Part shown: positions 6,616 to 27,749 of the stretch, piece after piece
How the letters are laid out: the number at the start of each line of letters is the position of its first letter
How positions within the stretch are numbered: position 1 is the stretch's first letter
NCBI GenBank assembly: GCA_947497315.1
Contig: CANMFX010000001.1
Location: 1,116,001-1,180,000, forward strand
Direction: 5' to 3'
Origin: an uncultured Sphingomonadaceae bacterium
GTDB taxonomy: Bacteria > Pseudomonadota > Alphaproteobacteria > Sphingomonadales > Sphingomonadaceae
Length of the DNA: 64,000 nt
Translations under genes and position numbers: made by a program
The notes under the pieces: model-generated
The model's input: only the letters and a program-made list of their open reading frames with translations
Told to the model about the DNA's origin: nothing
Databases searched by the model: none

Positions 6616-6666
6616 ATAAGAAAGGGGGAGGGGACCCCAGTTTTAAGACACTCAGGAGCGACAATA

Positions 6667-9038: not shown

Positions 9039-9045
9039 ACATCTT

Positions 9046-10134
9046 ATGGCCAAACTGACGGGTATCAAGGTCGTTGACCTCTCGCTTTTTCTGCCGGGCC
9101 CGATGCTCAGCATGATGATGGCCGACCATGGGGCCGAGGTGATCAAGGTTGAGCCGCCGACCGGTGATCCGGCGCGCGCGATGGAACCGATGGAGGCGGG
9201 GCAATCTGTCTGGTTCCGCAATCTCAATCGCGGCAAACAGGCGCTGGCGCTTGATCTGAAATCCGACAAAGGGCGGGCGCAGCTTTGGGAACTGCTGGCC
9301 GATGCCGACGTGATGATCGAAGGGTTTCGGCCCGGTGTGATGAAACGGCTGGGTTTTGACTATGACACTGTGTCAGAGCGTTTCCCGCGCATCGTCTATT
9401 GTTCGATCTCCGCTTTTGGGCAGGAAGGTGAAATGGCGCATCACCCGGCGCATGATCTGGCGGTGCAGGCCTTGTCCGGTTTTTTGTCTGTCAACGATGG
9501 TGCTGATGGCACACCAGTGGTGCCCGGGGTGCCTTCGGCGGATATGGCCGCGGGTCTCAACGGATTGTCGGCGGTGCTGATGGCGCTGATCGGGCGCGAT
9601 AAGTCGGGCGAGGGCGATTATATCGACATCGCGATGTTTGACTCCATGCTGCCCTGGAGCGCCCATATTGCCGGATCGGCCATATCTGGTGGAACTTCTC
9701 CGCAATCACAATCGCAGCGGTCATTAGGCGGCGCGGCTTTTTACAATGTGTACAAGACCGCAGATGACAAGCATGTCGTGCTGGGCGCGCGCGAGGTTAA
9801 ATTTGCGCGCAACCTTCTGACCGCGCTGGATCGGCTGGACCTGTTACCGCTTGCCGAAGCGGAGCCGGGCGACGGGCAAGCACCATTGATTGCATTCCTG
9901 CGGGAGGTTTTCGCGACCAAAACGCGCGATCAATGGGTTGAGTGGTTTGCCGACAAAGACGTCGCATTCTCCCCCGTTCTCGATTTTCGCGAAGCGCTTG
10001 ATCAGGATTTTCTGCTTGAACGCGGCCTGCTGATCGAGGCCCACGGCAGCCATCAAATCGGCCCGTCTTTTCGCTTTGCTTCGGAAACTGATTGGCAGGC
10101 GAAAGATGCGCCGACCTTGGATGAGCCGCAATGA
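9046..10134 (+). CDS. CaiB/BaiF family III CoA-transferase
   Basis: DHGAEVIKVEPPTGDPARAMEPMEAG, FRNLNRGKQALALDLKSDKGRA. Confidence 0.93.
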   Translation: MAKLTGIKVVDLSLFLPGPMLSMMMADHGAEVIKVEPPTGDPARAMEPMEAGQSVWFRNLNRGKQALALDLKSDKGRAQLWELLADADVMIEGFRPGVMKRLGFDYDTVSERFPRIVYCSISAFGQEGEMAHHPAHDLAVQALSGFLSVNDGADGTPVVPGVPSADMAAGLNGLSAVLMALIGRDKSGEGDYIDIAMFDSMLPWSAHIAGSAISGGTSPQSQSQRSLGGAAFYNVYKTADDKHVVLGAREVKFARNLLTALDRLDLLPLAEAEPGDGQAPLIAFLREVFATKTRDQWVEWFADKDVAFSPVLDFREALDQDFLLERGLLIEAHGSHQIGPSFRFASETDWQAKDAPTLDEPQ

Positions 10135-10142
10135 CGCCGGCC

Positions 10143-10922
10143 CTAGTCCACCTCGATATGCATCGAATAGGCAAAGCGTTCGCCGGGATGATAGCTCGCC
10201 GAAATTTCGAACATCCGGTCGCTTTCGTCAAAATAGCAGCGCAGGATGCGCAATACCGGATCGCCCTTTTCCAGGCCAAGCTCCGAGAGAATGTCTTTGG
10301 TGCCCTTAATCGCTTGGATATCCTGCGTCACCCGGGCCACACTGACTTCGCCCAGCGTTTCAATCTGCCCAAACAAGGTGGTAGCGTTTACGTCGATCTG
10401 CGCGACAGCGTCGGCCAATTCGGGGTGAACCCAAGCCTCGGTCACCGCAATGGGTCGTTTTCTGCCGGGCTTCATCCGCTTGCCGCGAAACGCGAACCAG
10501 TCGCCATCAGCCTTGGCGCCAATCTGTTCCACGACATCTTTGGGAATGGCACCAGCTTTTTTCTTTTCAAAGGCAATGGTGGTGTCACGCGCATATTGCA
10601 AAATCTCACCGACATTGCTCAGCGGCTGGTGCAGCGCACCGGCGCGCGCGGTCGCCGGTTGAACGACCGTACCGGAACCACGCTTGCGGGTGATCAGGCC
10701 TTCCGCGGTCAGTTTGCGCAAGGCCTCCCGCACAGTGAAGCGGCTGACATCATATTTTTTACACAAGACAGATTCGGTCGGAAAATCACCGGGATCAGGA
10801 TAGTCTCCGCGCAACACCGCCTCGCGCAGTTCGTCTGCCAATTCGAGATAGCGCGGTTTCTTCTTCGACGCGTTTTTGGATTTAGCGGGTGCTTTCGCGG
10901 CCAATTTTTCTCTCCCGGACAT
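10143..10922 (-). CDS. GntR family transcriptional regulator, HutC type (UTRA effector domain)
   Basis: wHTH: PRYLELADELREAVLRGDYPDPGDFPTESVLCKKYDVSRFTVREALRKLTAEGLITRKRGSGTVV; C-terminal UTRA-like domain. Confidence 0.9.
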   Translation of the reverse strand: MSGREKLAAKAPAKSKNASKKKPRYLELADELREAVLRGDYPDPGDFPTESVLCKKYDVSRFTVREALRKLTAEGLITRKRGSGTVVQPATARAGALHQPLSNVGEILQYARDTTIAFEKKKAGAIPKDVVEQIGAKADGDWFAFRGKRMKPGRKRPIAVTEAWVHPELADAVAQIDVNATTLFGQIETLGEVSVARVTQDIQAIKGTKDILSELGLEKGDPVLRILRCYFDESDRMFEISASYHPGERFAYSMHIEVD

Positions 10923-10948
10923 CGGGCAGTCTTAGGACGGGCGCCGCT

Positions 10949-12199
10949 ATGACGCAAGAGAGCCTGACCGAGAAATTGGCGACTCACCTCATGCGCCCGG
11001 TCGATGAAGCGACAAGGCAGCGCGCGCGTCTGCATTTGCTGGATTGGCTTGGCTGTGTGGCGGGCGCGCTCAAGTCGGAACTGGGAACACTTCCCAAAGG
11101 TATTTTTGACATTCGACCATCTGTAGAAGCAGCCTGGCTCGGCAATTTTCTGGAAATGGACGACATTCACAGGAGCGCCATTCTACACCCCGGGCCGGTG
11201 GTCTGGGGCACGGTCTTTGCAAATCAGATAGGCGATATGGACGAGATCGTCGATGCGGCAGTTCGCGGTTATGAAGCAATAATTTGCGTTGGCGCTACTT
11301 TGGATGACGGTCACTATGCCATGTGGCACAACACTAGTACGGCCGGAATTTTCGGGGCTGCAGTGACAGCCTGCCATTTGTTTGAGCCAGAAATGGATTT
11401 TAATGCCCTTGTGTCTGCGATGGGGCTTGCCGGATCGATAGCAGGAGGGCTCTGGCAAATGCGGCACGAGCAGGGGCAGGCCAAACAATGGCATATTTCG
11501 CATGCCGCAGAGACAGGATGGCGTGCTGCCGACGCTGTCTTGGAAGGTGTCGTTGGCCCCCGCTTCATTCTCGAGGGGCCGCAAGGTCTCTATGCTGCCA
11601 CTTGCAAAAACCCGAAGCCGATGGCTTTTCCGGATCAATGGCGTATCCATGAAGTCAGCTTGAAGCCATGGGGCGCTTGCCGCCATGCCCATCCGGCTAT
11701 CGATGCGGCATTGGAACTCAAGGCCAAGCTCGGATCGCTTGAAGGCGATATCCATGTCGAAACCTATGCCGACGCCATCAGTTTCTGTGATCGCCCGGAT
11801 CCCAAAACCGTGATCGACGCGAAATTCTCGCTTCAGCATGCAGTGGCAGTCGTGGCCGAGCGCGGTGTGCCGCAGCTTGGTGACTTTGAACCGGACGCGA
11901 TTGCCGCGTTGTCGGGAAATCGTGCCCGCGTTACGGTTGGCGAAGTCAGCGACATAACCACTCGTTATCCCGAACATTATGGTGCTCGGGTCACTCGCGG
12001 CGGAGAGAGTATTGAACTGGTCGACACTCTGGGTGACCCGGAACGGCCACTGTCGAAAGAGGGCATTATCGACAAAGCGCGGGCGCTGATCGCATGGGGC
12101 GGGCTGGCTGAAAGAGAAGCAGATCGAGCGATTGATCTGGCGCTGAATGGAGATGACCCAGAGGCGATCCATGAGATGCTATCAGAGTGGCTGTCATGA
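10949..12199 (+). CDS. MmgE/PrpD family protein
   Basis: LHLLDWLGCVAGALKSE, WHNTSTAGIFGAAVTAC, KPWGACRHAHPAIDAALEL. Confidence 0.85.
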   Translation: MTQESLTEKLATHLMRPVDEATRQRARLHLLDWLGCVAGALKSELGTLPKGIFDIRPSVEAAWLGNFLEMDDIHRSAILHPGPVVWGTVFANQIGDMDEIVDAAVRGYEAIICVGATLDDGHYAMWHNTSTAGIFGAAVTACHLFEPEMDFNALVSAMGLAGSIAGGLWQMRHEQGQAKQWHISHAAETGWRAADAVLEGVVGPRFILEGPQGLYAATCKNPKPMAFPDQWRIHEVSLKPWGACRHAHPAIDAALELKAKLGSLEGDIHVETYADAISFCDRPDPKTVIDAKFSLQHAVAVVAERGVPQLGDFEPDAIAALSGNRARVTVGEVSDITTRYPEHYGARVTRGGESIELVDTLGDPERPLSKEGIIDKARALIAWGGLAEREADRAIDLALNGDDPEAIHEMLSEWLS

Positions 12200-13503
12200 G
12201 CGCGACGCAGAAAATAATTGATTTCGCAGCTGCCGAACATGTCTTGCCCGACAGCACTCAGGCGGCCGCAATCCGTTTGCTGGGCGACACATTGGCTGGC
12301 GGTGCGGCGGGAGCAGCATCCGAGGAAGCGCAGGCCATGCTCGCCGCTGTGCGTACCTGGGGCGCCGGGGATGGAGCCCGGTTGCTTGGTCTCACAGATC
12401 GGCTGCCGGCCCCATCGGCCGCGTGGTTTAACGGCTTTGCGATCCACTGCCTGGAATGGGATGCCGTGCATGAACCCGCAGTGGTCCATGCCATGTCAGT
12501 CGTGACGGCGGCCTTGCTGGCTAGCGCGGATCGGAAGAGTGGATGCGACGCTGAGCATTTTTTAACCGCCTTGGCCGTTGGTGTGGATATCGCCAGCGGC
12601 ATAGGCGTTGCGGCGACTGGTGCCATGCAGTTTTTCCGCCCGGCGACAGCTGGCATCATCGGTGCGGCTTTGGCCGTGGCACGGCTGGAAAGCGTGCCAG
12701 CTGACAGATTTGCCGATGTTTTGGGCATAGCCTACTCTCAAGCCGCAGGCACCATGCAGGCCCATGTCGAGGCGTCTATTGCACTGCCCTTGCAGATCGC
12801 CAACGCATCCCGCGCGGCAATCACCGCCGTTGATCTGGCAAAGGCTGGCATGGATGGTCCGCATGATGCGCTTGAAGGACCTTTTGGCTATTTCAAGCTG
12901 TTCGAACCGGGTGATCTAACGCGCTATACCGATGACATCGGAAAGCGCTGGCTGATTGAGGAAGTCAGCACAAAGCCCTTCCCATCTGGTCGTGCCAGCC
13001 ATGGAATATTGGGCGCGATTGACGACATGATCCGCGACGGATCACTGGACCCGATGATGGTAGAGTCGGTTGATGTGGCTGCGCCGCCATTGATCCATCG
13101 ATTGGTCGGGCGTGCTTATAAATCTGACATGACGCCCAGCTATGCGCGGCTCTGTTTGCCCTTTCTGCTGCCGTTAATGTTGCGTGACCGGATTATTGAC
13201 CCGCGCTGCTTCCATGCGCAGGAATTTGCCAATCCCGACCTGATGGAGCTCGGCAGCAAGGTTGTTGTCCGTATCGACGACAATCCTGATCACAATGCCC
13301 TGGCACCGCAAAAACTGAGCATCACGCTCTCGGACGGTGGCAGTATCCAGCGCACCATCACAGATAATCTTGGCAGCCCGACGGCACCAATGTCGGATTC
13401 GCAGAACCAGTCCAAACAGAGTCTCGCCCATACGCTTGCGAGTGATGATTGCGACCCCAGAATATTTGATGACCCTTTAGCCTATGCCACGGAGCCTCGA
13501 TGA
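12196..13503 (+). CDS. MmgE/PrpD family protein (second tandem copy)
   Basis: RLLGDTLAGGAAGAASEEAQAML, FNGFAIHCLEWDAVHEPAVVHAMSVV, KPFPSGRASHGILGAIDDMI; ATGA overlap with upstream gene. Confidence 0.87.
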   Translation: MSATQKIIDFAAAEHVLPDSTQAAAIRLLGDTLAGGAAGAASEEAQAMLAAVRTWGAGDGARLLGLTDRLPAPSAAWFNGFAIHCLEWDAVHEPAVVHAMSVVTAALLASADRKSGCDAEHFLTALAVGVDIASGIGVAATGAMQFFRPATAGIIGAALAVARLESVPADRFADVLGIAYSQAAGTMQAHVEASIALPLQIANASRAAITAVDLAKAGMDGPHDALEGPFGYFKLFEPGDLTRYTDDIGKRWLIEEVSTKPFPSGRASHGILGAIDDMIRDGSLDPMMVESVDVAAPPLIHRLVGRAYKSDMTPSYARLCLPFLLPLMLRDRIIDPRCFHAQEFANPDLMELGSKVVVRIDDNPDHNALAPQKLSITLSDGGSIQRTITDNLGSPTAPMSDSQNQSKQSLAHTLASDDCDPRIFDDPLAYATEPR

Positions 13504-14861
13504 CTTTTCCGACTTATTTTGAAGCCTTTGATGCCAAGCAGATGCTCGCCGACTATCCCGTCGGTGACGCTTTCACTGCGCGCTATACCGGCATGTCTCG
13601 TGACGAGCTTTTTGCCATTCAAAACAAGCAGTTTCTGAAGCTGATGAAACGCGGATGGGAAATCCCTTTTTATAAGCGTCTATGGAGCAATCAGGGAATA
13701 GAAGCGGGAGACATCGGCGGATTGGAAGATATCACCAAACTTCCGGTTTATGACAAGAGCGACCTGATGGCTTCGGTGAACGAATATCCGCCTTATGGTG
13801 ATTTTGACGGTCGCGGAGACACGCCTGTGGTGTTCCACACGACATCCGGAACAACGGGTCGTCCGCAGCCGTTGATGTTTGGTCCGAAGGGTCGAGAGAT
13901 CACCAATTTGCTGGTCGGACGTATGTATCGCTGGATGGGTCTGGGCCGTGATGATGTGGTGCAGTCCGTCTATGGTCACGGTATGATCAATGGCGGGCAT
14001 TATATTCGCGAGGCGGTGACGCATTTTACCAACGCCCTGTTTCTCAGCGCCGGCACCGGCATTGAAACCCGGTCGATCAATCAGGTCAACCTGATGGCTG
14101 ATTTCAATGTCAGCTGCATGGTCGGCTTTGTAGATTATATCCGCAAGCTGGCCGATGTCGCTGCCGCAGAGGAACTGTTCGACCGGATCAATCTGAAGAT
14201 GATCATCGGCCATCTGGGAACAGAAGATCGCGCCTCGACCGAAGCAGCCTGGCAAGGGGTCAAGGCCTATGACTGGTATGGTGTCGGAGATACCGGCAGC
14301 ATTGCGGGCGAAGGCCCTGAACGTGATGGCATGTATGTGTGGGAAGACGCGCAATATCTCGAACTGCTTGATGTCGATACCGGTGCGCCCGTGGCGGCTG
14401 GCGAGACTGGAGACATGGTCGTGACCTGCCTGTTCAAGGACGATATCGCGCCCTGTATCCGGTTCAATACCCATGATATTACCGAGGAGCGCACCGACAG
14501 CAATGCCACAGGCATGGTGTTCAAGCGGATTACCGGGTTCAAGGGTCGCAGCGACAATATGGTCAAGCTACGCGGTATCAATATCTTCCCGCATGCCATT
14601 GGGGCCATCATCGAAGGGCGCAATGATCTGACAGGTGAATATGTCTGCCGCGTCACGCGGGATGATGCCGGACGGGACGAGATGCACGTAACGCTTGAAA
14701 GCAAAGGCAGCAGCAGCCAGGCGGAGCTGGCGGAACTGCTGCGTAAAGGTATCGGTATTGAAGTCGGCGTGGCACTGGTTGATGCCGGAGGGACTGCAAA
14801 AGATACGCAAATTGATACGCGCCAGAAACCCATTCGCCTGATTGATGAGCGAGCTTTGTGA
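13500..14861 (+). CDS. Phenylacetate-CoA ligase-like (PaaK-type) adenylate-forming enzyme
   Basis: VVFHTTSGTTGRPQPLMFGPKG, YDWYGVGDTGSIAGEGP, IRFNTHDITEE, GFKGRSDNMVKLRGINIFPHAI. Confidence 0.88.
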   Translation: MTFPTYFEAFDAKQMLADYPVGDAFTARYTGMSRDELFAIQNKQFLKLMKRGWEIPFYKRLWSNQGIEAGDIGGLEDITKLPVYDKSDLMASVNEYPPYGDFDGRGDTPVVFHTTSGTTGRPQPLMFGPKGREITNLLVGRMYRWMGLGRDDVVQSVYGHGMINGGHYIREAVTHFTNALFLSAGTGIETRSINQVNLMADFNVSCMVGFVDYIRKLADVAAAEELFDRINLKMIIGHLGTEDRASTEAAWQGVKAYDWYGVGDTGSIAGEGPERDGMYVWEDAQYLELLDVDTGAPVAAGETGDMVVTCLFKDDIAPCIRFNTHDITEERTDSNATGMVFKRITGFKGRSDNMVKLRGINIFPHAIGAIIEGRNDLTGEYVCRVTRDDAGRDEMHVTLESKGSSSQAELAELLRKGIGIEVGVALVDAGGTAKDTQIDTRQKPIRLIDERAL

Positions 14862-16051
14862 TCGACTGGGATGCCTTGGAAACGGCCAATAGGCGGTTAA
14901 ATGCCTTTACCGATCTTGATCGGACCGCGACGGGCGGTGCCGGACCTCTTGCCGGGGTCACCATCGGCGTGAAGGGCAATATTGCGGTTAAATCCATGCC
15001 CTGGACCGCCGGTTGCGAACTCCATCGTGATCGCGTTGCGGATAAAGACGCTGCGGTGGTTGCAAAGCTGCGCGCGGCTGGTGGGGCGATGATGGGAATG
15101 CTGAATATGGAGGAGGCCGCGCTGGGCGCAAAGACCGACAATCCGTGGTTCGGCAAAACATATAATCCGCACAAGGAAGATTATACGCCCGGCGGCTCAT
15201 CTGGCGGAAGCGGGGCAGCGGTTGCGGCTGGTCTTTGCGATGTCGCTTTGGGCACGGACACAATGGGGTCGGTGCGGATACCGGCCGCTTATTGCGGGGT
15301 GTATGGATTTAAACCCGCACAATCGGCGATTAGCCAAGATGGTTTGGAGCTGGCGGAACGATCGCTGGACTGCATCGGCCCGCTGGCCCGGAATTTGGAT
15401 CTGTTAGAAAAGGTAGCACGGGTCATTAGCGATTTCGGTGAGGACAAGGCCGCGACGGGGTCGCTGGCGACATTGGTCGAAACGGGTGTTGAGTGCGAAC
15501 TGGAAGTCATCGAAAATTTCCGTGATATCATGCGCTGGGCGGGGGAAACTATTGCCGTGGCTCAGCTGAAACATCCGTTGTCGCGCATCCGTTTTGCCGG
15601 ATTTATAAAAACATCGAAAGCCATGGCTGCACATTTTGTGGACGAAGATCAAAGCAAGCTTTCTGATAGTTTGAAAAAAATGCTCACCTACGGCCCGAAA
15701 CGCGGCGCCGCCGATTGGGACGAGGATCAGGCAATTCTTGAACAGACCTCTGAAACGATGCAGATGCTGGTTGCAAAACACGGTTTTTGTATCTTGCCGA
15801 CCGCGCCGCAAGGTGCCTTTCCGCATAGCGAAGATGCACCAGCCAATCAGGCGGATTATACCTGTCTTGCCAATATTGCAGACCTTCCCGCGATTACCAT
15901 ACCGTCCGGCTTTAACGACAATGCTATGCCTTTGGGGCTCCAGGTTTTAGCGCCAAAAGGATGCGAAGCGGATCTATTTGCTCTGGCGCGGAGACTGGAC
16001 GAGAAGTTACGCGGTTATCGTCGCCCAGAAACCTATTTGGAAATCACATAA
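14858..16051 (+). CDS. Amidase signature family hydrolase
   Basis: GVTIGVKGNIAVK, YTPGGSSGGSGAAVAAGLCDVALGTDTMGSVRIPAAYCGVYGFKP: Ser-cisSer-Lys motifs retained. Confidence 0.92.
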   Translation: MIDWDALETANRRLNAFTDLDRTATGGAGPLAGVTIGVKGNIAVKSMPWTAGCELHRDRVADKDAAVVAKLRAAGGAMMGMLNMEEAALGAKTDNPWFGKTYNPHKEDYTPGGSSGGSGAAVAAGLCDVALGTDTMGSVRIPAAYCGVYGFKPAQSAISQDGLELAERSLDCIGPLARNLDLLEKVARVISDFGEDKAATGSLATLVETGVECELEVIENFRDIMRWAGETIAVAQLKHPLSRIRFAGFIKTSKAMAAHFVDEDQSKLSDSLKKMLTYGPKRGAADWDEDQAILEQTSETMQMLVAKHGFCILPTAPQGAFPHSEDAPANQADYTCLANIADLPAITIPSGFNDNAMPLGLQVLAPKGCEADLFALARRLDEKLRGYRRPETYLEIT

Positions 16052-16064
16052 GAGGAGAGAAACT

Positions 16065-16370
16065 ATGCGCATCATTGTATTGTTCAATCTGAAAGAAGGC
16101 GTTGATATTGCTGAATATGAGGAATGGGCGAAAACGCGGGATATCCCGACCGCGAGCGCGCTGAGCTCAGTCACGTCCTTCACGGTTCACAAGGCCACTG
16201 GCCTGTTTGGTTCGGATGATCCGTCTCCCTATGAGTATTTCGAGATTATCGACATTACCGGCATGGAAGAATTTGTCGCCGACGTGTCGGACCCCGAATT
16301 TCAGGCGATGGCGGCACCGTTTCAGGATTATGCCGATGGTCCGCAATTCATACTGACAGAAGACCTCTAA
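16065..16370 (+). CDS. EthD/REDY-like dimeric alpha-beta barrel protein
   Basis: MRIIVLFNLKEGVDIAEYEEWAKTRDIPTASALSSVTSFTVHKATG; RBS AGAGGAGAG. Confidence 0.65.
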   Translation: MRIIVLFNLKEGVDIAEYEEWAKTRDIPTASALSSVTSFTVHKATGLFGSDDPSPYEYFEIIDITGMEEFVADVSDPEFQAMAAPFQDYADGPQFILTEDL

Positions 16371-17173
16371 TGTCTGGCCGGTTTGCAGAAAAAACCATCG
16401 TCGTTACCGGTTCCGGCAAGGAAAAGGGGCTGGGGCAGGGCATATTGCAGCGTTTTGCCGATGAAGGCGCCAACTGCGTCGTGTCGGACCTCGCCATTGG
16501 CGATCAGGAAGAGGGCGTGGCCGAAGAATTGCGCGGGCGTGGTGCCAAAGTGGCTACCATAGCCTGTGATGTCAGCGATGCGGCGCAATGTCAGGCCTTG
16601 GTCGATCAAAGCGTGGATGCTTTTGGTGCGGTTGATATTTTCGTCAACAATGCCGGTATCGGGTTTATGATGAAGCCCCTTTTGGAAGTCGACACGGCGA
16701 AAGAATGGGATCAGGTTATCGGTGTGAACCTGTCCGGTGCCTTTTACTGTACTCAGGCGGCCGCCAAAGTGATGGTTGCTGCCAGCAATGGAGGACGTAT
16801 CATCAATATCGCATCGCAAGCTGCGAAAACCGGCTTTCCGCATCTGCCTGCCTATGTCAGTTCCAAACATGGCATGGTCGGTCTGACCCGGGCGAGTGCG
16901 GTTGAGCTTGGCGCACACGGGATTACTGTCAACGCGGTTTGTCCTAACCATGTGACGACCGGTCTGGGTGCCCAGCAGAATGAATATTTTTCGAAACTGC
17001 TCGGCTTTGACAGTGTCGAGGCCTATCTCGCCAATATGAGCAAGAGCAATCCGATGGGCAGGCCCGGCCTGCCATCTGATACGGCTGCCGCATGTGCGTG
17101 GCTGGCCAGTGACGATGCCTTTTATGTCACCGGAGAGGCGATCAATGTCTCTGGCGGAGAGGAAATGCACTGA
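16370..17173 (+). CDS. Short-chain dehydrogenase/reductase
   Basis: VVTGSGKEKGLGQGI, FVNNAGIG, YVSSKHGMVGLTR, terminal NVSGG. Confidence 0.93.
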   Translation: MSGRFAEKTIVVTGSGKEKGLGQGILQRFADEGANCVVSDLAIGDQEEGVAEELRGRGAKVATIACDVSDAAQCQALVDQSVDAFGAVDIFVNNAGIGFMMKPLLEVDTAKEWDQVIGVNLSGAFYCTQAAAKVMVAASNGGRIINIASQAAKTGFPHLPAYVSSKHGMVGLTRASAVELGAHGITVNAVCPNHVTTGLGAQQNEYFSKLLGFDSVEAYLANMSKSNPMGRPGLPSDTAAACAWLASDDAFYVTGEAINVSGGEEMH

Positions 17174-17595
17174 TGATGCACTATGCCGGAGCCTGTCATT
17201 GCGGCGCACTGAAGCTGGATTTTCACAGCGAAAAATCGCCCGCGGAACTTGGCGCAAGAACTTGCCAATGTTCCTTTTGTGAGGCGCATGGTGCCTCATG
17301 GACATCCGATCCCGAGGGCAATGTCGATATCACATTGACCGGTCCGGTATCCCGATACCGGTTTGGAACCAAAACCGCTGACTTTCTGGTCTGCGCCAAC
17401 TGCGGTGTTGTCCCGGCAGTGGTCAGTGAAATTGAAGGACAGTTGCGGGGCGTGATCCGGGTCAACTGCCTCGAAGAAAGTGCGGCCTTTCTTGCGCAAG
17501 CAGCCCCGATAGACCTCGATGAAGAAATATTGGATTCACGCCTCGACCGACGGGCGAAGGGCTGGACACCGGCTGCGATCAAGGACAAAAACTGA
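17173..17595 (+). CDS. GFA/CENP-V family (glutathione-dependent formaldehyde-activating-like) protein
   Basis: GACHCGALKLDFHSEK..., CQCSFCEAHGA, ADFLVCANCGVVPA zinc-binding Cys pattern. Confidence 0.88.
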   Translation: MMHYAGACHCGALKLDFHSEKSPAELGARTCQCSFCEAHGASWTSDPEGNVDITLTGPVSRYRFGTKTADFLVCANCGVVPAVVSEIEGQLRGVIRVNCLEESAAFLAQAAPIDLDEEILDSRLDRRAKGWTPAAIKDKN

Positions 17596-17596
17596 T

Positions 17597-18463
17597 ATGC
17601 AAGAAGAACGAATGGACTGGCCCGATGGCGCGAAAATGGCGCTGAGCATTGTCGTCAATGTCGAGGAAGGCAGCGAGATGACGGTTGCCCGCGGCGACCG
17701 CGGGATGGAGCCGGTGGATGAGCTTGGCATTCATATCAAGTCCCCGATCCGTAACTATGGCAATGAGAGCAATTATCTTTATGGCATCAAGGCGGGCGCG
17801 CCGCGCATCGTCAAACTGCTCAAAGAATATGAGATCATGGCAAGCTGGACGGTGGCCGCCATGAGTCTGGAAAACCATCCGGAAATTGGCGAAGCGATTG
17901 CAGATATGGGCCATGAACCGGTGAGCCATGGTTATCGCTGGGTCCATCAGTTCAAGATGGACGAGGAAAAAGAGCGCGAGTTTATTCGCAAGGCTGTCAC
18001 GTCGATTGAAAAGACCACCGGTACGCGCCCCTATGGCTGGCTATCGCGCTATTTCCATACCGATAATACCCGGCGTCTCCTGATCGAAGAGGGCTTTGCC
18101 TATCATATGGACGACTATTCCGGAGATATTCCATTTTGGGACAAGGAAACCGTGCCGGAAAAACCGATCGCGATTGTGCCCTATCAGCTTGATAGCAATG
18201 ATATGAAAATGTGGACTGATCCCGCGATGACGCCGCAGCAATGGCTGGGTTATGCCAAGCGTAACTTTGATCAAATCTATCGCGAGGGCGAAGAGGGCAA
18301 TCCGAAAATGATGTCGCTTGGCTTGCATTTGCGGATTATCGGCCGACCAGGGCGGATCTGGGCGTTTGAAGAATTTCTGAAGCATGTGCGATCGAAGAAA
18401 GATGTCTGGGTAACCACCCGCCATCAGGTTGCTCAGCATCTGGCGAAAGTTGATCCTCTATGA
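17597..18463 (+). CDS. Polysaccharide deacetylase-fold hydrolase (PuuE/allantoinase-like subgroup)
   Basis: LSIVVNVEEGSEMT, GHEPVSHGYRW, ATG at 17597 directly after upstream stop. Confidence 0.85.
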   Translation: MQEERMDWPDGAKMALSIVVNVEEGSEMTVARGDRGMEPVDELGIHIKSPIRNYGNESNYLYGIKAGAPRIVKLLKEYEIMASWTVAAMSLENHPEIGEAIADMGHEPVSHGYRWVHQFKMDEEKEREFIRKAVTSIEKTTGTRPYGWLSRYFHTDNTRRLLIEEGFAYHMDDYSGDIPFWDKETVPEKPIAIVPYQLDSNDMKMWTDPAMTPQQWLGYAKRNFDQIYREGEEGNPKMMSLGLHLRIIGRPGRIWAFEEFLKHVRSKKDVWVTTRHQVAQHLAKVDPL

Positions 18464-19224
18464 CCCTGCGGCTTGAGAAAGAGGGGAAGGTCGCGCACCT
18501 GCTCATCGACCGTCCGGATAAGCGCAATGCGTTTAACCAGGCCATGTGGGAGCTGCTGCCCGAATTGCTGGCCGATGCGATGACGGACGATGCGATCCGT
18601 ATTTTGATGCTGCATGCCAGCCGCAAGGATAGCGCTTTTTGTGCCGGGGCCGATATTGGCGAATTTGCGACCGGTTCCACTGATCCGGAATGGCGCGCAC
18701 GCAATCAGGCAGCGATAGGCCGGGTCCAGCATGAGCTGGCGCAGGCACCAAAGCCAACCGTTGCGATTGTTGATGGCGATTGCGTGGGTGGCGGCTGCGG
18801 TATCGCGCTGGCCTGTGACATGCGGGTGGCCGGACCGAAAGCCCGTTTCGGGATTACGCCTTCGAAACTGGGGCTGGTCTATCCGCTGCACGACACCAAA
18901 TTGCTGGTTGACCTGGTTGGGCCTTCGCAAGCCAAGCGGATATTGTTTACCGGCCAATTGCTGTCGGCGCAGCAAGCGCTCGATATGGGTTTGATCACCA
19001 TCCTAGCTGACGATCCCTATACAGAGGCGGACGCGCTGGCGGCCACGATGGCATCGGTCTCTTCGCACAGCCAGACGATGAGCAAGTCGATCATAAAGCG
19101 CATATTGGACGGGCAGGCCGACGATGATGCCGAAACATCAGCGCTGTTCGACTCCGCATTTGAGAGCGATGATTTCAAGGAAGGCGTCAGCGCTTTCATG
19201 GAAAAGAGAAAACCGGAATTTTGA
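18460..19224 (+). CDS. Enoyl-CoA hydratase/isomerase
   Basis: LLIDRPDKRNAFNQAMWELL, FCAGADIGEFA, GDCVGGGCGIALACDMRVAGPKARFGITPSKLGLVYP. Confidence 0.93.
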   Translation: MTLRLEKEGKVAHLLIDRPDKRNAFNQAMWELLPELLADAMTDDAIRILMLHASRKDSAFCAGADIGEFATGSTDPEWRARNQAAIGRVQHELAQAPKPTVAIVDGDCVGGGCGIALACDMRVAGPKARFGITPSKLGLVYPLHDTKLLVDLVGPSQAKRILFTGQLLSAQQALDMGLITILADDPYTEADALAATMASVSSHSQTMSKSIIKRILDGQADDDAETSALFDSAFESDDFKEGVSAFMEKRKPEF

Positions 19225-20143: not shown

Positions 20144-20737
20144 TTAGCGGCGATGCTGCCCCGCCTGCCATTGATCAGGCGAATAGAGTGTGCTCGCAGA
20201 ATCAAACGGTTTGTCTTCGAGTTCTGTTGCAAGGCTGTCATTCCACCGGTTGAGAAAACCAAACATGCTGATAACCGCCATGATCTCGGTTTTCTGACGC
20301 TCGTCATAAAAGGGGTTGAGTGCTGCGAAATGCGCGTCTGTCGCTGCATTGGGTACCTGTCCGGCGGCAAAGGCGAGGTCAAGCGCCGCTCGCTCGGCCT
20401 CGCTGAACAGGTCGCTGGACTGATAGTCCCAGACAGCTTTTACTTTCTCCTCGTCCACCCCGACATCGCGGGCGCCCAATGTCGTATGGGCCTTGCAATA
20501 TTGGCATCCGGCTGCGGCGCTGACAACCGCTCCGATCAGGCGTTTCAGGCCATTGTCAATGGTGCTTTCTCCATAGATCACGCTTACCAGCCCGCGAAAT
20601 GCGCCTAGCAATTCCGGCCAATGCGCCATGGTCATCACCGAATTGGGAACATAGCCCATCAGGTTTTCAGAAAATTTGAGAGCGGCCTGCGTCTCATCAG
20701 GCAATTCATCCATGGATAGCGGCGTGATGCGGGTCAT
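20144..20737 (-). CDS. Carboxymuconolactone decarboxylase/AhpD-like protein
   Basis: LKRLIGAVVSAAAGCQYCKAHTTLGARDVGVDEEKV: CxxC-xxxH motif. Confidence 0.9.
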   Translation of the reverse strand: MTRITPLSMDELPDETQAALKFSENLMGYVPNSVMTMAHWPELLGAFRGLVSVIYGESTIDNGLKRLIGAVVSAAAGCQYCKAHTTLGARDVGVDEEKVKAVWDYQSSDLFSEAERAALDLAFAAGQVPNAATDAHFAALNPFYDERQKTEIMAVISMFGFLNRWNDSLATELEDKPFDSASTLYSPDQWQAGQHRR

Positions 20738-20766
20738 TTTCTGATCTCCTCAAGAAATATGGAAGC

Positions 20767-21069
20767 CTACCATATCTTGCCGCCAATCCAGTCGCCAGCG
20801 GCGGCGGTAAATTCATTGATGCGAATATCGGCCCAGATGTCGGCATGAAAATAGGGATCGGCTTCAAGCTGCGCACGGGCATCTTCTGCTGTCTCAGCCT
20901 TGACAACCAACAGCGATCCTACCGTGTCGCCTCGCGCATTTTTAAGTGGCCCGGCGACAAACAGATTATCAATGGTCTTTTCAATATGAGCAAAATGCGC
21001 GGCGCGTGTGTCGAGACGTTTTTGCGCTGTATCCGTTTTATCGGTGCAGTAAATGGCGAAGGCTTTCAT
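20767..21069 (-). CDS. YciI-family protein
   Basis: MKAFAIYCTDKTDTAQKRLDTRAAHFAHI...LFVAGPL...DPYFHADIWADIRINEF. Confidence 0.85.
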   Translation of the reverse strand: MKAFAIYCTDKTDTAQKRLDTRAAHFAHIEKTIDNLFVAGPLKNARGDTVGSLLVVKAETAEDARAQLEADPYFHADIWADIRINEFTAAAGDWIGGKIW

Positions 21070-21872
21070 GATCCCGTCCTGTCCAGAAATTTCAATATTT
21101 CCGCTGCCGTTTTTTCTGCTGCTTCGTCAAGGACAGCGCGTTTAATATCCAGCCGCTCAATGAATGTAACGCCAGGCATGATGTTGGCCGCATGCCGGGT
21201 CGCGTCGAGCAGGCCCGATTGCGAAGCCAATATCAGAGCTTCGTGTGTGACAGCTGGCAGTCTTGCATCGACATCATAGCTGAACGCCGCATGGAAAGCC
21301 TTATTCATCAGCCGCCCCGGGCGCAATTGCTCGGTAAACATCTCAAAGCTGCGCTCCAGCGTCTGGCTTTCGATGCGTTTGGTCATCCCGCGTTCCCAGG
21401 GTCCTTCAAGGCAAGCGAGATCGGGCATAATTTCAAACGTCCTGGCGCTCCCGGCTCTGAACTTGGCGCTCGTTTCGGTATCAAAAACCGGCACGTCGAT
21501 CAGCGCCAGCCGCCCTATCTTTCCCGGTGCGGTCAGGGACATTTCGGCCGCTACGAGATTTCCGGTGTGAAAGCCCATCAGATCAACCGGGCCACCGCTC
21601 GATTGTCCATCAACTACCGCCAGCATCGCTGCGGCATATTCCTCAATCGACGGTTCTTCCTTGAAAGCATCCGAGCCCCCATGGCCGGGATAGTCCGGCG
21701 CAAAGACACGGCGACCTTGGGCCAGATGCGGCATGATGGTCGTAAAGGCCAGCCCGCTAAACGGGGCTGGGTGAAGACAATATAGGTCCGGTTGTGTTGA
21801 CGCACCTTCCGGCGCCAGCAACCGCCAGTGCACTTGACCGAACGGCCCGTCACTATAGCCCTTGCGGATCAT
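21066..21872 (-). CDS. Alpha/beta hydrolase
   Basis: LHPAPFSGLAFTTIMPHLAQGRRVFAPDYPGHGGSDAF; VDLMGFHTGNLVAAEMS. Confidence 0.85.
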   Translation of the reverse strand: MIRKGYSDGPFGQVHWRLLAPEGASTQPDLYCLHPAPFSGLAFTTIMPHLAQGRRVFAPDYPGHGGSDAFKEEPSIEEYAAAMLAVVDGQSSGGPVDLMGFHTGNLVAAEMSLTAPGKIGRLALIDVPVFDTETSAKFRAGSARTFEIMPDLACLEGPWERGMTKRIESQTLERSFEMFTEQLRPGRLMNKAFHAAFSYDVDARLPAVTHEALILASQSGLLDATRHAANIMPGVTFIERLDIKRAVLDEAAEKTAAEILKFLDRTGS

Positions 21873-23227
21873 TCGCTGGCAGCGCCCAGGCGCACCATCT
21901 GTTCACGGTATAGCCGCCGCGTCAAAGGCATCATCAAAAACGGTACCAGACCGAAGATCAAGGGAACTGCCGCCACAGCATAGCGGAGATTATCTTCGCC
22001 AAAGACGCTGCTCGACAATTCACCAACTGCGATTGGACCCAGCGACCCGAACCAGCTGATCGCCAGATAATAGAGCGCAACGACCTGACCGCGGATTTGC
22101 GCTGGCGTGATCACCAGCAAGGATGTCACACCAATGGCAGAGACAATTCCGATACCGACCGTATTGATGCACAATATCGCGAAGGCCAGTTCCGCGCTGG
22201 GCATGAACAGGGGAATGGCGGCGGTCGGGACCATGATGAAAAAGCCGATATAGAGGATGCGCAAGGAGGCATCCTGCACGCCCTTTTTCGTCCACCAATC
22301 GGAGATGGTGCCCATGATCATCATGTTGGCTGGACCAATGACTAGGAGTGCGACGCCGTTGACGAAGGCATATTTCTGCGCCGACCAGCCCCAGGTCCGT
22401 TCAAACGTCGGTGCCAGAAAACCCTGACTATAGGCGATGGTCGTCATGGTGCAGATGATCAGCACGAAGCCGATATAGAGCGTCTTGTTGCGCCAGATAT
22501 ATTTGAGCGCATCGAAAAAACCGCTGCCGCTGATCACCTCTTCCGATGCCGCTACCGGACGCCGTGCCGGTTCTTTCATAAACAGGAAGAAGAGCGCAAA
22601 AACCATCCCGGGAAGGCCCACAATTATCAGTGTGAAACGCCATGGTGACAGCTCACCGAAAAAGGGTAACGACTGGCTGCCGCTGGCTGCGGTCCAGGCG
22701 ATGATCGCGCCGCTCAACAGGGAAGCCAGGCCTGCACCAATGGGAAGGGCGGAAGAATAGAAGGCGATCGGTTTGCCGCGTTTCTCGGTCGGGAAACTGT
22801 CGCCAATCATGGAAAATGTCGCGGGGCTAAGCGTCGCTTCACCCACGCCCACACCCATGCGTGCAGCGAACAGTTGAAAGAAATTTTTGGCCATGCCGGT
22901 CGCGACGGTCGCCGCAGACCATAAGGCAACCCCGATCGACACAATCCAGATCCGCTTGCCGCGATCAATCAGCCAGCCCATGAAGATGCCGACAAAACCA
23001 TAGACCAAAGTGAAGGCGCTGAGCAGCCAACCGATCTGGCGGTCGGACAGATCAAATTCCGCCTTGATCGGTTCGATCAAAAGGCCAAGAATATAGCGAT
23101 CCACAAAACTGAAAATATAGGCAATGGTTAGCATGACCACCAGAAACCAGCCAGCAGCGGCGCTGGGATACGGCTTTGCTGGAGCAGCGACTGCGTCTGT
23201 CTGGGATTGATCGGTTTGACTGGCCAT
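21869..23227 (-). CDS. MFS transporter
   Basis: 12-TM-like hydrophobic profile; FVDRYILGLLIEPIKAEFDLSDRQIGWLLSAFTLVYGFVGIFMGWLIDRGKR. Confidence 0.95.
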   Translation of the reverse strand: MASQTDQSQTDAVAAPAKPYPSAAAGWFLVVMLTIAYIFSFVDRYILGLLIEPIKAEFDLSDRQIGWLLSAFTLVYGFVGIFMGWLIDRGKRIWIVSIGVALWSAATVATGMAKNFFQLFAARMGVGVGEATLSPATFSMIGDSFPTEKRGKPIAFYSSALPIGAGLASLLSGAIIAWTAASGSQSLPFFGELSPWRFTLIIVGLPGMVFALFFLFMKEPARRPVAASEEVISGSGFFDALKYIWRNKTLYIGFVLIICTMTTIAYSQGFLAPTFERTWGWSAQKYAFVNGVALLVIGPANMMIMGTISDWWTKKGVQDASLRILYIGFFIMVPTAAIPLFMPSAELAFAILCINTVGIGIVSAIGVTSLLVITPAQIRGQVVALYYLAISWFGSLGPIAVGELSSSVFGEDNLRYAVAAVPLIFGLVPFLMMPLTRRLYREQMVRLGAASE

Positions 23228-23679
23228 TATTGAGCGTCCGGAATGAGGTAGATGACCACCAGATTATCATCAAAGTCGACAATGCCGATTTCACGACCAA
23301 TCCGCCCGTCATGGGTTTCAAGCCGTCCTTCTTCATAGACATGCAGGCCCAGGTTTCGCGCTCCTTCCATTACAGCGTCGGGATCAGCGACATCCAGAAC
23401 GATGGCTCCGCGCCGAGGATGTGGCACTGGGTCCAGAGGGACATTCTTGACTTCTGACAAGGCCATGACCCGCGGCTGGCCGGGCAGCGACAGGATCGAA
23501 AAACCAATTTCCGCCTCTTTCGGGATTTCAAAGACCGGGAAGGAATAGCTGTCGGGATTATGTCCTTTGCGAAAGGTTTCCTCGAACCCCAGCACATCGC
23601 GATAGAAAGTCAGCGACCGGTCGATATCAGCCACGACAAAATTGCCGCGCTGAAACCGCGTCTGTTGTTTTTCACCCAC
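23227..23679 (-). CDS. VOC family protein
   Basis: GNFVVADIDRSLTFYRDVLGFEETF...IVDFDDNLVVIYLIP. Confidence 0.85.
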   Translation of the reverse strand: MGEKQQTRFQRGNFVVADIDRSLTFYRDVLGFEETFRKGHNPDSYSFPVFEIPKEAEIGFSILSLPGQPRVMALSEVKNVPLDPVPHPRRGAIVLDVADPDAVMEGARNLGLHVYEEGRLETHDGRIGREIGIVDFDDNLVVIYLIPDAQ

Positions 23680-23691
23680 TAATATTCTCCC

Positions 23692-24786
23692 TCAAATCCA
23701 TGTCTCTGGTTCGCCGCGAACCGAACAGCATTGTATCCCGACATTCTGGCCATAATAGAGGTTCGCCAGCGCCCGGGGCATATATTGAAAGCCCTGTTCG
23801 ACATCCTGCACGGGCTTCAATTTGCCGTCATGAATCCATCCTGCCAGATCACCCATGACTGCATCCCAGCGGTCCAGATGATTATAGACAAAAAAGCCCT
23901 GCATCCGCGTTTCCGTGGCGCGTAGCCGGGTGTAGTTGGACAGCTTGAACGGCTCGTCCCGCGTATATTCGCTGATCGATCCGCACAGCACGACCCGGCT
24001 GTGAAGCCTCAAGCGTTCGAGACACGCTTCCAGTGTTTCGCCGCCAACATTGTCGAAATATAGATCGATGCCATCGGAGCGCAGCTGGTCAAGCCGCTCT
24101 TCGATATTCTCGGATTTATAGTCAATCGCTTGGGAACAGCCATGATCGAGAATGAAGGCGCATTTTTCGGGGCCACCCGCCATACCGATAACATCGCAGC
24201 CAACCACGTTAGCGGCCATTTGACTGACCATCGATCCGACACCGCCGGCGGCTCCGGATAACACCATGCGGTCACCTTCTCGCGGATCACCACAGGCAAA
24301 TAATCCGGCATGAGCCGAGAGGCCCGTCATACCCAACACTCCGGAACCGAGAGCCGCGGGCAAGCCGTTGGCCGGCATCCGGAAGAATTTCTCCTCCGGT
24401 GTCATTTTGGAGACCTTGTAAGTCTGCCAGCCCATCTGGCCCTGCACTATCTCGCCTTCGCGCCAGTCGGGATGGCGGGACTTGATGATTTGCGCGACGC
24501 CGCGGCCATGGATGACATCACCGGGCTCGAGAACCCGTTCTCCCGCAGCACCCGTGCCCTGCATGTAGAAGCGCATGACAGGAGCGAGGCCGAGATAGTG
24601 GGTCTTGAGCAGTACTTCGCCCTCGCCGGGCTCTGGTATGTCGGTGACCGCCCATTCAAAATCTGACGGGACAACATTACCAACGGGCCGAGCCGCAACG
24701 CGCCATTGGTAGTTGGCGTCATCGTCAATCTGCTTGCCCGCAGACAGGGCATCAAAATCGGAAAGAGAGGAACCGGTGGCGGTCAC
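23692..24786 (-). CDS. MDR-family NADP-dependent oxidoreductase
   Basis: GMTGLSAHAGLFACGDPREGDRMVLSGAAGGVGSMVSQMA; DLYFDNVGGETLEACLERL. Confidence 0.92.
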   Translation of the reverse strand: MTATGSSLSDFDALSAGKQIDDDANYQWRVAARPVGNVVPSDFEWAVTDIPEPGEGEVLLKTHYLGLAPVMRFYMQGTGAAGERVLEPGDVIHGRGVAQIIKSRHPDWREGEIVQGQMGWQTYKVSKMTPEEKFFRMPANGLPAALGSGVLGMTGLSAHAGLFACGDPREGDRMVLSGAAGGVGSMVSQMAANVVGCDVIGMAGGPEKCAFILDHGCSQAIDYKSENIEERLDQLRSDGIDLYFDNVGGETLEACLERLRLHSRVVLCGSISEYTRDEPFKLSNYTRLRATETRMQGFFVYNHLDRWDAVMGDLAGWIHDGKLKPVQDVEQGFQYMPRALANLYYGQNVGIQCCSVRGEPETWI

Positions 24787-25260
24787 TCAATCATGAACCT
24801 TTACGACCTGATTCACTTCGAAGAAATAGCCATCAAGATCCCAGAAGGAACAGCCGATCATATCCTTTTGCTTGCCATCAGCGCCGGTAACGCTCCATTC
24901 GCGTGGCTCGCTATGAATGGTTGAGCCGAGCGTACGGGCCCTTTCTACAGCGCCCTTCGCATCCTCTGATGCAACAACAAAAACCGGTGCGCCGAATTTG
25001 ATTTCGGTGGGCAATTCTTCCGGCGCATCCTGTTTGGGATCGAGCCATTCCAGCAGGCCAATCATACCGATCATGTCATGCTCGCATTTCAGGATGATCA
25101 GGCGGGTCTTGTCACCCTTTTTACCAGCGGCGAGCTGCGTCCCGGAAAGGGTAAAGGGCGTGTCCATCCACTTGGTCATGCCAAAGACGGTTTCATACCA
25201 GTTGGAGGCGGCGTCGCCGTCACGAACCATGAGGGTCGTGCGTTTGATAATATCAGTCAT
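24787..25260 (-). CDS. VOC family protein
   Basis: MTDIIKRTTLMVRDGDAASNWYETVFGM...FWDLDGYFFEVNQVVKV. Confidence 0.82.
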   Translation of the reverse strand: MTDIIKRTTLMVRDGDAASNWYETVFGMTKWMDTPFTLSGTQLAAGKKGDKTRLIILKCEHDMIGMIGLLEWLDPKQDAPEELPTEIKFGAPVFVVASEDAKGAVERARTLGSTIHSEPREWSVTGADGKQKDMIGCSFWDLDGYFFEVNQVVKVHD

Positions 25261-25559
25261 GCGATTTTGGGACTTTCTATAACAAGGACCTGGCAATCGG
25301 CGATATCAGCGCGCAACTTCTTGGCTTCCTGATATTCCGGACTGTTCCAGAATTTATGAACGGCGGCTTTGTCGGGCCATTCTGAAATCACCATCGACGC
25401 GCCATCGCCAAAATCGCCTTCCAGAAGCTCTGCTCCCGGGCCGCGCAAGACATAGCGTCCGCCGAACTTCTCAACCAGAGCACCGGCAGCAGCGCCATAG
25501 CCCTTGATGAATTTGTCGCGATCTGAAATTTTCGCAGTAACGATCATATAGGCAGGCAT
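25257..25559 (-). CDS. DUF1330 family protein
   Basis: MPAYMIVTAKISDRDKFIKGYGAAAGALVEKFGGRYVLRGPGAELLEGDF...VISEWPDKAAVHKFWNSPEY. Confidence 0.88.
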   Translation of the reverse strand: MPAYMIVTAKISDRDKFIKGYGAAAGALVEKFGGRYVLRGPGAELLEGDFGDGASMVISEWPDKAAVHKFWNSPEYQEAKKLRADIADCQVLVIESPKIA

Positions 25560-25630: not shown

Positions 25631-26782
25631 CTATTTCGGCCACCTTGCCTTGTCGCGTAAATAGCGCCCGGAATCCCGTGTGTCCTTGGGTTGATATTCG
25701 GCAAAAAGATTGGGACCATAGCGGGATCGATATTGTTCGAACACAGGCATGAACAGCTCGCTGTGAACAATCGGTTGCCGATTGCGTGCCCGGAAACTCG
25801 CGATCGGGATGCGCGCAGAAACCAGTGTTTCAAAAGCGGTTTTGGCGATATTCATTACGTCGCCATCGGGCGCGTAAATGGCTGATCCACCGCCGCCGGC
25901 ATCAGCAAAATAGTAGGGGTTTTCCGGCGACGCGGCATTGTTCGCCACCGCTGTATAGACGCCATTGTAGAGGCTGGTTGCTTGCATATCGATGGGGTTG
26001 AAACCGCCCGTCGCGGTGCGCAGTATAATCTCCGCGCCTTTCATCGCAAAGGCCCGGAAGAGTTCCGGTTCGCGCTGTACCGAGCTAGTCGCAATATTAC
26101 CGATCGGCGTACGTGTGACGGGGAGGACTGCCTCGGCTCCGTACATATCGACATAGCGGTCCAGCACATCATAAATGGTGGTGGTGAACAGTTCGAAATC
26201 GCCCCCGAAAAAGCCCTTTATGTTGCGGGCCTTCCAATGTTTGTCGACAATCTCGCCCTTGCCATTCATGATTGTGGTGATGGACAGCAGGCTTTCCGGC
26301 CAATCCGGATCGCGCACATAAGACCCGAAAACTAGCCAGCAACCATATTCACGCGCCTTGCCCGCGAGCATTTCCGTCTCTTCGCCCGGTATCTCGATAG
26401 CTGCTCGCCGTGCATCCTGGATATTCCATTTGTGGTAATAGCCGGTAATCGGAAATTCGTGAAAGAAGATCATATCTTTCGGCCCGGAAAAACCATTTGC
26501 AGCGTCGATCAGGTCCATCATGTGTTGAACATTGTCGCGGCGGGTCTGTTTGAGGTTGCTGAGCTCGACCGGTACGACCCGCGCTTGGGCGACGCCCAGG
26601 GAAATGGTGTCCTTGGCCAATGGCACCGTTTCATAACGGCCATCTGGCGTGATACTGATCTTGTCCGGTCCGCCTTTCTTTGCGGCATGGGCGAAATCAG
26701 TCCAGCTTAATGCAGCTCCAGCGGCCAGACCCGCGCCCGCTGAAAAGAGACTGCGCCGCGAAACACCATCCTTTTGCTCCAT
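25631..26782 (-). CDS. Tat-exported nitrilase-superfamily protein lacking the catalytic Cys
   Basis: Tat-like SRRSLFSAGAGLAAGAALSW; FFHEFPITGYY (Glu), KHWKARNIKG (Lys), GNIATSSVQREPELFRAFAMKGAEIILR where Cys is expected. Confidence 0.85.
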   Translation of the reverse strand: MEQKDGVSRRSLFSAGAGLAAGAALSWTDFAHAAKKGGPDKISITPDGRYETVPLAKDTISLGVAQARVVPVELSNLKQTRRDNVQHMMDLIDAANGFSGPKDMIFFHEFPITGYYHKWNIQDARRAAIEIPGEETEMLAGKAREYGCWLVFGSYVRDPDWPESLLSITTIMNGKGEIVDKHWKARNIKGFFGGDFELFTTTIYDVLDRYVDMYGAEAVLPVTRTPIGNIATSSVQREPELFRAFAMKGAEIILRTATGGFNPIDMQATSLYNGVYTAVANNAASPENPYYFADAGGGGSAIYAPDGDVMNIAKTAFETLVSARIPIASFRARNRQPIVHSELFMPVFEQYRSRYGPNLFAEYQPKDTRDSGRYLRDKARWPK

Positions 26783-26795
26783 GATAAAATTCCTC

Positions 26796-27749
26796 TCATT
26801 TCTCGCTCATATTGGGAGGGTCATTGTCCAGGAACGGACGGATGACCGTGACATATTTTTCCGGTGCGAGATCAAAGCCGCCCAGCGTGACACCATTGAT
26901 ATGTATCAGCCTGGCTTGCGGGAACAGGGGTAAGGCCGCCTCCGTCTCCTGCCTCAGGCTACCGTCATTGGTGATCAGCAGAACAGGCTGCTCGACGTTC
27001 GGGAAACGCTCTTCTGCAGGATAGGTGAAGACGCCGTGATAGGCCTCCCAGCAATGCGGATAACATTGCATCATGTCACTAAAATGCTCCTGCGCGCGTT
27101 CCAGCGGCATGCCCGCTGCCGTCGCTGCTGTAGCAAAATCCCATTTCTTGACGAGATGAGAGCCGTCGGACGCAACTTGTTCAGGCTTGGCGTTGGCTTG
27201 ATAGGCCTTTTTGCGTTCCGCACCGGTGAAGAAGGGCAGGCCGGGTAGGACCAGCCTGCGAACGAGGTCGGGATGCCGGATGGCAAGCTCTGTCGCGATC
27301 AGGGTGCCTGTGTGATAGCCGAGTAGATCAACTGGCTGCCCCTGTTCGCCACCATATCCCATTGCCTTTAGGACAGTCGCCGCAGATTCGGCATAACCAC
27401 TTATGGATTGCAGCTCCTTTGGCCGATCCGAATCGCCATAGCCGGGTGTATCAATGGCAATGACTGTTCGATCGCTTGCCATGCGCCGCATGAACTTGAG
27501 GAAATAATCACTGGAATAGGGCGTGGGATGGAACAGCACCAGCGGGGGTTTTGGGGATTCGGTCTCGGGGCGTGCGATGCGAACATGGACCTGACCGAAC
27601 GGTCCAGCGATAAAGTCGCGTTCGATTTTTGCAGCGGAGATTTCGGTCTTGGCAGGCGGTTGCGACGCGGCGATGCCCTGAGTTGCAGCAAAAGAAAGCG
27701 CGGATGTCATAACGCAGATCAGAAAAATGCAAGTTTGATAGAGTCGCAT
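26796..27749 (-). CDS. Exported alpha/beta hydrolase
   Basis: Signal peptide MRLYQTCIFLICVMTSALSFAATQGIAA; VIAIDTPGYGDSDRPKE, VDLLGYHTGTLIATELA. Confidence 0.87.
   Translation of the reverse strand: MRLYQTCIFLICVMTSALSFAATQGIAASQPPAKTEISAAKIERDFIAGPFGQVHVRIARPETESPKPPLVLFHPTPYSSDYFLKFMRRMASDRTVIAIDTPGYGDSDRPKELQSISGYAESAATVLKAMGYGGEQGQPVDLLGYHTGTLIATELAIRHPDLVRRLVLPGLPFFTGAERKKAYQANAKPEQVASDGSHLVKKWDFATAATAAGMPLERAQEHFSDMMQCYPHCWEAYHGVFTYPAEERFPNVEQPVLLITNDGSLRQETEAALPLFPQARLIHINGVTLGGFDLAPEKYVTVIRPFLDNDPPNMSEK

Follow-up and report, generated by a model that had tools for sequence, protein, structure and literature searches.

The gene considered here lies within a catabolic island on the genome of an uncultured Sphingomonadaceae bacterium, in a stretch of 64,000 nucleotides that was analysed as a whole and is referred to as the window (Table 1). 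It forms a single open frame of 383 residues that begins with ATG, with a Shine-Dalgarno-like GAGAGGA about 8 nt 5' of the start codon; the upstream neighbour stops 13 bp away. The encoded protein matches the Pfam family PF00795 (CN_hydrolase) with E=1.2e-18 (bit score 67.8; cut-off 23.2). The same family is matched by all 25 members of set A1. In sequence searches, the closest solved proteins are aliphatic amidases (2plq, E=4e-10), and none of the NCBIfam cut-offs is reached. The N-terminus resembles a Tat-type signal peptide: a twin arginine followed by a hydrophobic residue (RR-x-hydrophobic) lies inside the first 30 residues in 30 of 32 homologues, and Pfam assigned TAT_signal in one A1 member. 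As read from its sequence, the protein is a predicted Tat-exported member of the CN_hydrolase (nitrilase) family; the branch of Cys-less homologues to which it belongs is referred to as clade 1.

Table 1. Genes, segments and residues of the clade-1 locus, with positions counted from the first base of the window.
Feature	Position	Strand	Remark
Clade-1 Cys-less nitrilase-superfamily protein, 383 aa	25631..26782	(-)	Open reading frame; PF00795; amidase-like predicted fold
Tat-type signal peptide, about residues 1-34 (SRRSLF, hydrophobic stretch, AHAA)	26681..26782	(-)	Predicted from sequence and homologues
Glu109 (FFHEFPITGYY), counterpart of the catalytic Glu	26456..26458	(-)	Aligned with invariant E59 of the Cys enzymes
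Cys148, sole cysteine of the protein	26339..26341	(-)	Unconserved
Lys184 (DKHWKARN), counterpart of the catalytic Lys	26231..26233	(-)	Aligned with invariant K134 of the Cys enzymes
Glu197, candidate second catalytic Glu	26192..26194	(-)	Invariant in core rows
Shortened nucleophile region, G228-E240 (GNIATSSVQREPE)	26063..26101	(-)	Two residues fewer than in the Cys enzymes
Ser233 (GNIATSSVQREPELFRAFAMKGAEIILR), seven residues before the PE Glu	26084..26086	(-)	End residue of predicted strand 228-233
Upstream gene: alpha/beta hydrolase, Sec-type signal, GYHTG	26796..27749	(-)	13 bp before the nitrilase-like gene
Downstream same-strand genes: DUF1330, glyoxalase-fold, ADH/curcumin-reductase-like, glyoxalase-fold, MFS, alpha/beta hydrolase (GFHTG), YCII-like, CMD-family	20144..25559	(-)	
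Island core, part 1: HpcH/HpaI lyase, MaoC/mesaconyl-CoA hydratase-like, acyl-CoA dehydrogenase, two CaiB-type CoA-transferases, two MmgE/PrpD	5239..19221	(+)	
Island core, part 2: PaaK-like ligase, amidase, SDR, PuuE-like deacetylase, enoyl-CoA hydratase	5239..19221	(+)	

The upstream hydrolase and the nitrilase-like gene keep their order at locus L034 and, in part, in genome G281; the order of the downstream genes is the same at L034 and L035 and in G155, and inverted in G281. Seven genes of the island core were named by Pfam and the remainder were read from sequence. The wider island has three PuuE-like deacetylases in total and also encodes an isochorismatase-fold protein, an aldehyde dehydrogenase and TonB receptors, some of them named by sequence only. 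Much of it recurs in other sphingomonads together with clade 1 or with a second Cys-less branch, clade 2, and a reduced form is found in Stenotrophomonas. This gene content fits a pathway in which an amide- or imide-containing precursor would be broken down to a dicarboxylic acid, branched or substituted, from which CoA esters would be formed. A cyclic-imide pathway was also weighed, given the PuuE-like deacetylases, the isochorismatase-fold protein and the amidase, and was not adopted.

Both alpha/beta hydrolases of the locus, at 26796-27749(-) and 21066-21872(-), have a His in place of the nucleophilic Ser of GxSxG (GYHTG and GFHTG, respectively). As GxHTG, with Y, F or H before the His, occurs in most homologues in other Sphingomonadaceae, it represents a conserved non-Ser elbow. 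The window additionally encodes a flavin amine-oxidase-like protein with an apparent Tat signal (SRRAFVGGASASLVACAAP; 31478-32953(-)), homologues of which lie near clade-1 genes in G109, G281 and G175 and at L038, and a DUF1838 protein with a signal-like N-terminus (4224-5153(-)) that recurs in the island across several genera.

The AlphaFold2 model of the 383-residue protein (pLDDT 82, pTM 0.83, and a pLDDT of about 88 over residues 231-240) has the alpha-beta-beta-alpha fold of nitrilases. Its best Foldseek match is the aliphatic amidase 2uxy (E=2.3e-19), and among the 50 PDB matches listed all belong to the nitrilase family, with TM-scores of 0.52-0.60 by query length. A search of a viral structure library returned just a phage CN-hydrolase plus weak matches. 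The first-pass annotation, made from the sequence alone, had described an exported nitrilase-superfamily protein with recognisable Glu and Lys regions, a Ser codon at 26084-26086 and a single Cys in EYGCWLVFG. Family membership is borne out by the Pfam, sequence and structure matches, export is likewise predicted from the twin-arginine motif of the homologues, the Glu and Lys motifs align with those of the Cys enzymes, and the positions of the Ser (S233) and the Cys (C148) are exact.

Conservation was assessed over 45 clade-1 rows, which represent 42 distinct places since three loci are present twice. Lys184 is kept in 45 of 45 rows and Glu109 in 42, with Ala in three tandem paralogues. Glu197 is invariant in the 42 core rows, but the model has low local confidence there (about 55). 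The core clade shares Glu109, Lys184, Arg186, Asn187 and Gln236 as invariants, of which R186, N187 and Q236 are, like a further invariant, R255, specific to the clade. At position -7 from the PE Glu, no row has the catalytic Cys: Ser is found in 37 and Thr in 8 (36 and 6, respectively, in about 42 distinct homologues). The sole Cys of the protein is present in 22 of 42 core rows and replaced by T, I, M or S in the others; this poor conservation excludes C148 as a relocated nucleophile and disposes of the earlier concern that a different Cys might occupy the active site.

The same invariant residues (Glu, Lys, Arg186, Asn187 and Gln236) would also suit catalysis of a non-covalent kind, in which Glu109 and Lys184 drive the attack of water, an isomerisation or a lyase/hydratase step with no side chain acting as nucleophile; the position of the gene in an operon-like run of enzymes speaks for this as well. 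Against it counts that, to our knowledge, no member of the superfamily works without its Cys, and we consider non-covalent catalysis unlikely.

The nucleophile region differs from that of the Cys enzymes in length as well as in residue. From the strand Gly (Gly228) to the PE Glu, the spacing is 12 residues in every clade-1 row. Clade 2 and the majority of the Cys enzymes have 14, and three further Cys enzymes, in which the Gly is offset, have 15. Because two residues of the nucleophile turn have been lost, which residue takes the place of the Cys varies with the anchor chosen: counting back from PE leads to Ser233, and counting forward from the Gly leads to Val235. In hhalign profile-profile comparison with the set of Cys enzymes, the gap falls on the Cys itself, and in the profile alignment of clade 1 with clade 2 it falls on the clade-2 Ser. 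As such, Ser233 would be the residue at the Cys position only when PE serves as the anchor, and S233, S234, V235 or a deletion are all candidates. The first-pass statement that the catalytic Cys is replaced by Ser therefore stands in part: the Cys is gone and a Ser lies at -7, while a point replacement is unsupported as stated, given the 12-residue spacing and the gap on the Cys. The short spacing of clade 1 is also seen in an orphan sequence (L089, at a locus of genome G632) with a Cys at -8; close relatives of this orphan were sought in its family and none was found, so that it offers no pointer to the site of the nucleophile.

In a plant nitrilase-family structure, the elbow consists of a strand, a turn and a 3/10 helix; the Cys forms its apex, and the backbone N that comes next lies in the oxyanion hole (PMC4812014). 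The clade-1 model has a strand (228-233), a loop (234-238) and a helix (239-247), the short helix after the nucleophile being absent; with its 12-residue spacing, the protein thus departs from an elbow of normal length (strand, turn, short helix). In the model of a clade-2 protein with its normal spacing, a short helix (216-219) follows right behind Ser215. Clade 1 thus appears, from models and alignments, to have lost the elbow, and clade 2 to have retained it with a Ser at the apex. The active-site geometry was read off secondary structure and alignments, so the clade-1 elbow could be rebuilt in working form. Structure prediction, which had been proposed as a check, returned an amidase-like fold that lacks the short helix of the normal elbow.

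Searches for clade 1 covered 301 Sphingomonadaceae genomes, a set with one genome per species, the class and the phylum. Relatives with 34-98% identity were found in Sphingorhabdus and other Sphingomonadaceae, in Stenotrophomonas and other Lysobacteraceae/Xanthomonadales and in alphaproteobacterial MAGs; one MAG carries the label Geitlerinema, perhaps through mislabelling of the bin. The dN/dS values between close relatives, 0.02-0.09, indicate that the protein is functional and maintained. The Cys was lost long ago, and the Cys-less state is fixed throughout a diverse clade and kept by purifying selection. The proposed search for a Tat-exported Cys-less clade has thereby uncovered a real one, with Ser or Thr at -7 in all 45 rows and the twin-arginine motif in nearly all homologues. 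Conversely, the possibility raised at first pass that the Ser reflects a sequencing error or a strain-specific mutation, or that the gene is a pseudogene, is refuted by the homologues and the low dN/dS: the same residues recur in dozens of genomes in intact frames, and the probability of an artefact is close to nil.

In three clade-1 paralogues (L133, 510-1640; L134, 423-1649; L135, 3789-5060), HAQ replaces HEF, with the Lys and the Ser kept. This change takes the loss of the active site one step further. In genome G258 (L135), the HAQ paralogue adjoins a clade-1 gene on the opposite strand.

The genome also carries a clade-2 gene (locus L123, C1:1111224-1112375), the best same-genome paralogue of the clade-1 protein. 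It was invisible to the first-pass annotation because it is located outside the window, about 3.6-4.8 kb before the first base. Clade 2 keeps the Glu, has Arg for Lys and reads IASEEILYPE, with a Ser exactly at the Cys position and normal spacing, and is arguably a cleaner case of Ser for Cys than clade 1. Both clades contain the segment DVxxxYxxxYGxDxVFPVxxTxIGN. In the tree, each clade is supported at 100/100, and their union, though unsupported, passes the AU test (p=0.476). The tree calls for four or more changes between Cys and non-Cys. Other relatives with an elbow of normal length have Ala (L077, L080) or Gly (L138, L140) at the Cys position. The Cys has thus been lost recurrently in this part of the superfamily.

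The two clades travel together. Of the 301 Sphingomonadaceae genomes, 16 have clade 1, and every one of these also carries clade 2, which is present in 39 genomes overall (Fisher p=2.6e-16, uncorrected for relatedness). Clade 2 likewise occurs in 9 of 10 genomes whose clade-1 gene was found by way of other loci, and in the Sphingomonadaceae carriers its gene usually lies inside the same island. In sphingomonads, the clade-2 gene is adjoined by genes for a 418-aa methyltransferase-like protein and a 120-aa partner (C1:1109612-1111224, outside the window; L051:3612-5224), and in Stenotrophomonas (L041, L043) and at L038 this pair adjoins the clade-1 gene instead. The strict co-occurrence raises the question whether the clade-1 protein might be a structural or regulatory subunit that forms a hetero-oligomer with its clade-2 paralogue or another nitrilase-fold protein and functions only as a complex. 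Functional superfamily members are dimers or larger oligomers (PMC4700190), which is consistent with such an arrangement. Nevertheless, nearly all clade-1 proteins have a Tat signal and several clade-2 proteins have no evident signal peptide, so that their compartments may differ, and clade 2 is often present without clade 1. We regard a subunit role of this kind as improbable.

A second question is whether the remaining hydroxyl could take over from the thiol. In a Ser/Thr-dependent hydrolase, S/T233 or S234 at a rebuilt elbow would be activated by Glu109 for attack on an amide, ester or lactone, and the oxyanion would be stabilised by Lys184. The presence of Ser or Thr at -7 in every clade-1 row, the invariance of Glu and Lys in the core clade and the occurrence of two Ser-bearing families in one island all point in this direction, and interchange of Ser and Thr is tolerated in some enzymes with a hydroxyl nucleophile, such as Ntn hydrolases. 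However, the elbow is shorter by two residues, its short helix is missing from the model, and the strand-anchored alignment sets Val235 at the nucleophile site. In addition, Cys-to-Ser mutants engineered within the family show low or no activity: MtCPA C158S kept binding with strongly lowered reactivity (PMC4812014), and Lnt C387S was inactivated (PMC5500888). A hydrolase of this type is thus doubtful. The same holds for the broader and tentative idea that the superfamily has natural enzymes with Ser/Thr nucleophiles, namely clade 2 with Ser exactly in place of Cys and Arg in place of Lys, and clade 1 with a rebuilt short elbow, which would act on intermediates of a single island.

Given the shortened elbow and the impaired Cys-to-Ser mutants, binding is the most likely role. 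We favour, with moderate confidence, a periplasmic, Tat-exported pseudo-nitrilase whose Glu/Lys pocket has been retained and would bind a ligand of the amide or carboxylate kind. Specifically, the loss of the Cys and of the normal elbow would preclude covalent hydrolysis of amides or nitriles, and the intact Glu/Lys pocket, together with R186, N187, Q236 and R255, may bind an amide- or carboxylate-containing metabolite of the island. The protein might then bind substrates for the exported enzymes and importers whose genes adjoin its own, or act as their partner. The additional loss of the Glu in tandem paralogues inside clade 1 speaks for such a pseudoenzyme, as do the lack of the Cys at all 42 distinct loci, the purifying selection, the Tat motif and the constant company of clade 2. 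On the other side, the full conservation of Glu109 and Lys184 in the core clade fits catalysis as well as binding, and the retention of a hydroxyl at -7 in every member is more than drift would lead one to expect. Of the options initially offered (a Ser-dependent variant, a pseudoenzyme or a new exported binding protein), the data thus favour a pseudoenzyme that binds, with the Ser-dependent variant as a less probable alternative.

The superfamily is usually defined by its Cys-Glu-Lys triad. In the natural relatives described here, the Glu and the Lys (or Arg) are kept and the Cys has given way to a fixed Ser, Thr, Ala or Gly, and annotation pipelines will call them hydrolases. Such Cys-less relatives would reveal either reuse of the fold without its nucleophile or function with another one. 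Because two Cys-less families occur as a pair in a single catabolic island, assays and gene removal can be used to address the question.

A literature search for nitrilase pseudoenzymes, Cys-less branches and a C166S amidase found no such family described, most subscription journals lying outside its coverage. Among known systems, the aliphatic amidase AmiE (2plq, 2uxy; NF009802) is the best sequence match and shares with the clade-1 protein the fold, the aligned Glu and Lys and the 'PE...R..AMKGAE' helix. It differs in having Cys166 in an elbow of normal length, where the clade-1 protein is Cys-less and two residues shorter; the latter in turn has a Tat signal and a longer segment between the Lys and the nucleophile strand (TTTIYDVLDRYVDMYG...), and scores 51.8 against a cut-off of 427 in the NF009802 aliphatic amidase equivalog. 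The formamidase AmiF (2dyu, 2e2k; NF009803) is similar in fold and in the Glu/Lys region, but it needs Cys-Glu-Lys, and the clade-1 protein scores 28.5 against a cut-off of 406. The clade-2 paralogue is, like clade 1, a Cys-less nitrilase-family protein from the same island with a shared segment; unlike clade 1, it keeps the usual spacing, places its Ser exactly where the Cys would be and has Arg for Lys and, in several members, no evident signal. MtCPA C158S and Lnt C387S resemble the clade-1 protein in having a hydroxyl in place of the thiol. In contrast to these single mutants, which were made in the laboratory and have an intact elbow, clade 1 represents a natural and ancient loss of the Cys that is combined with a shortened elbow.
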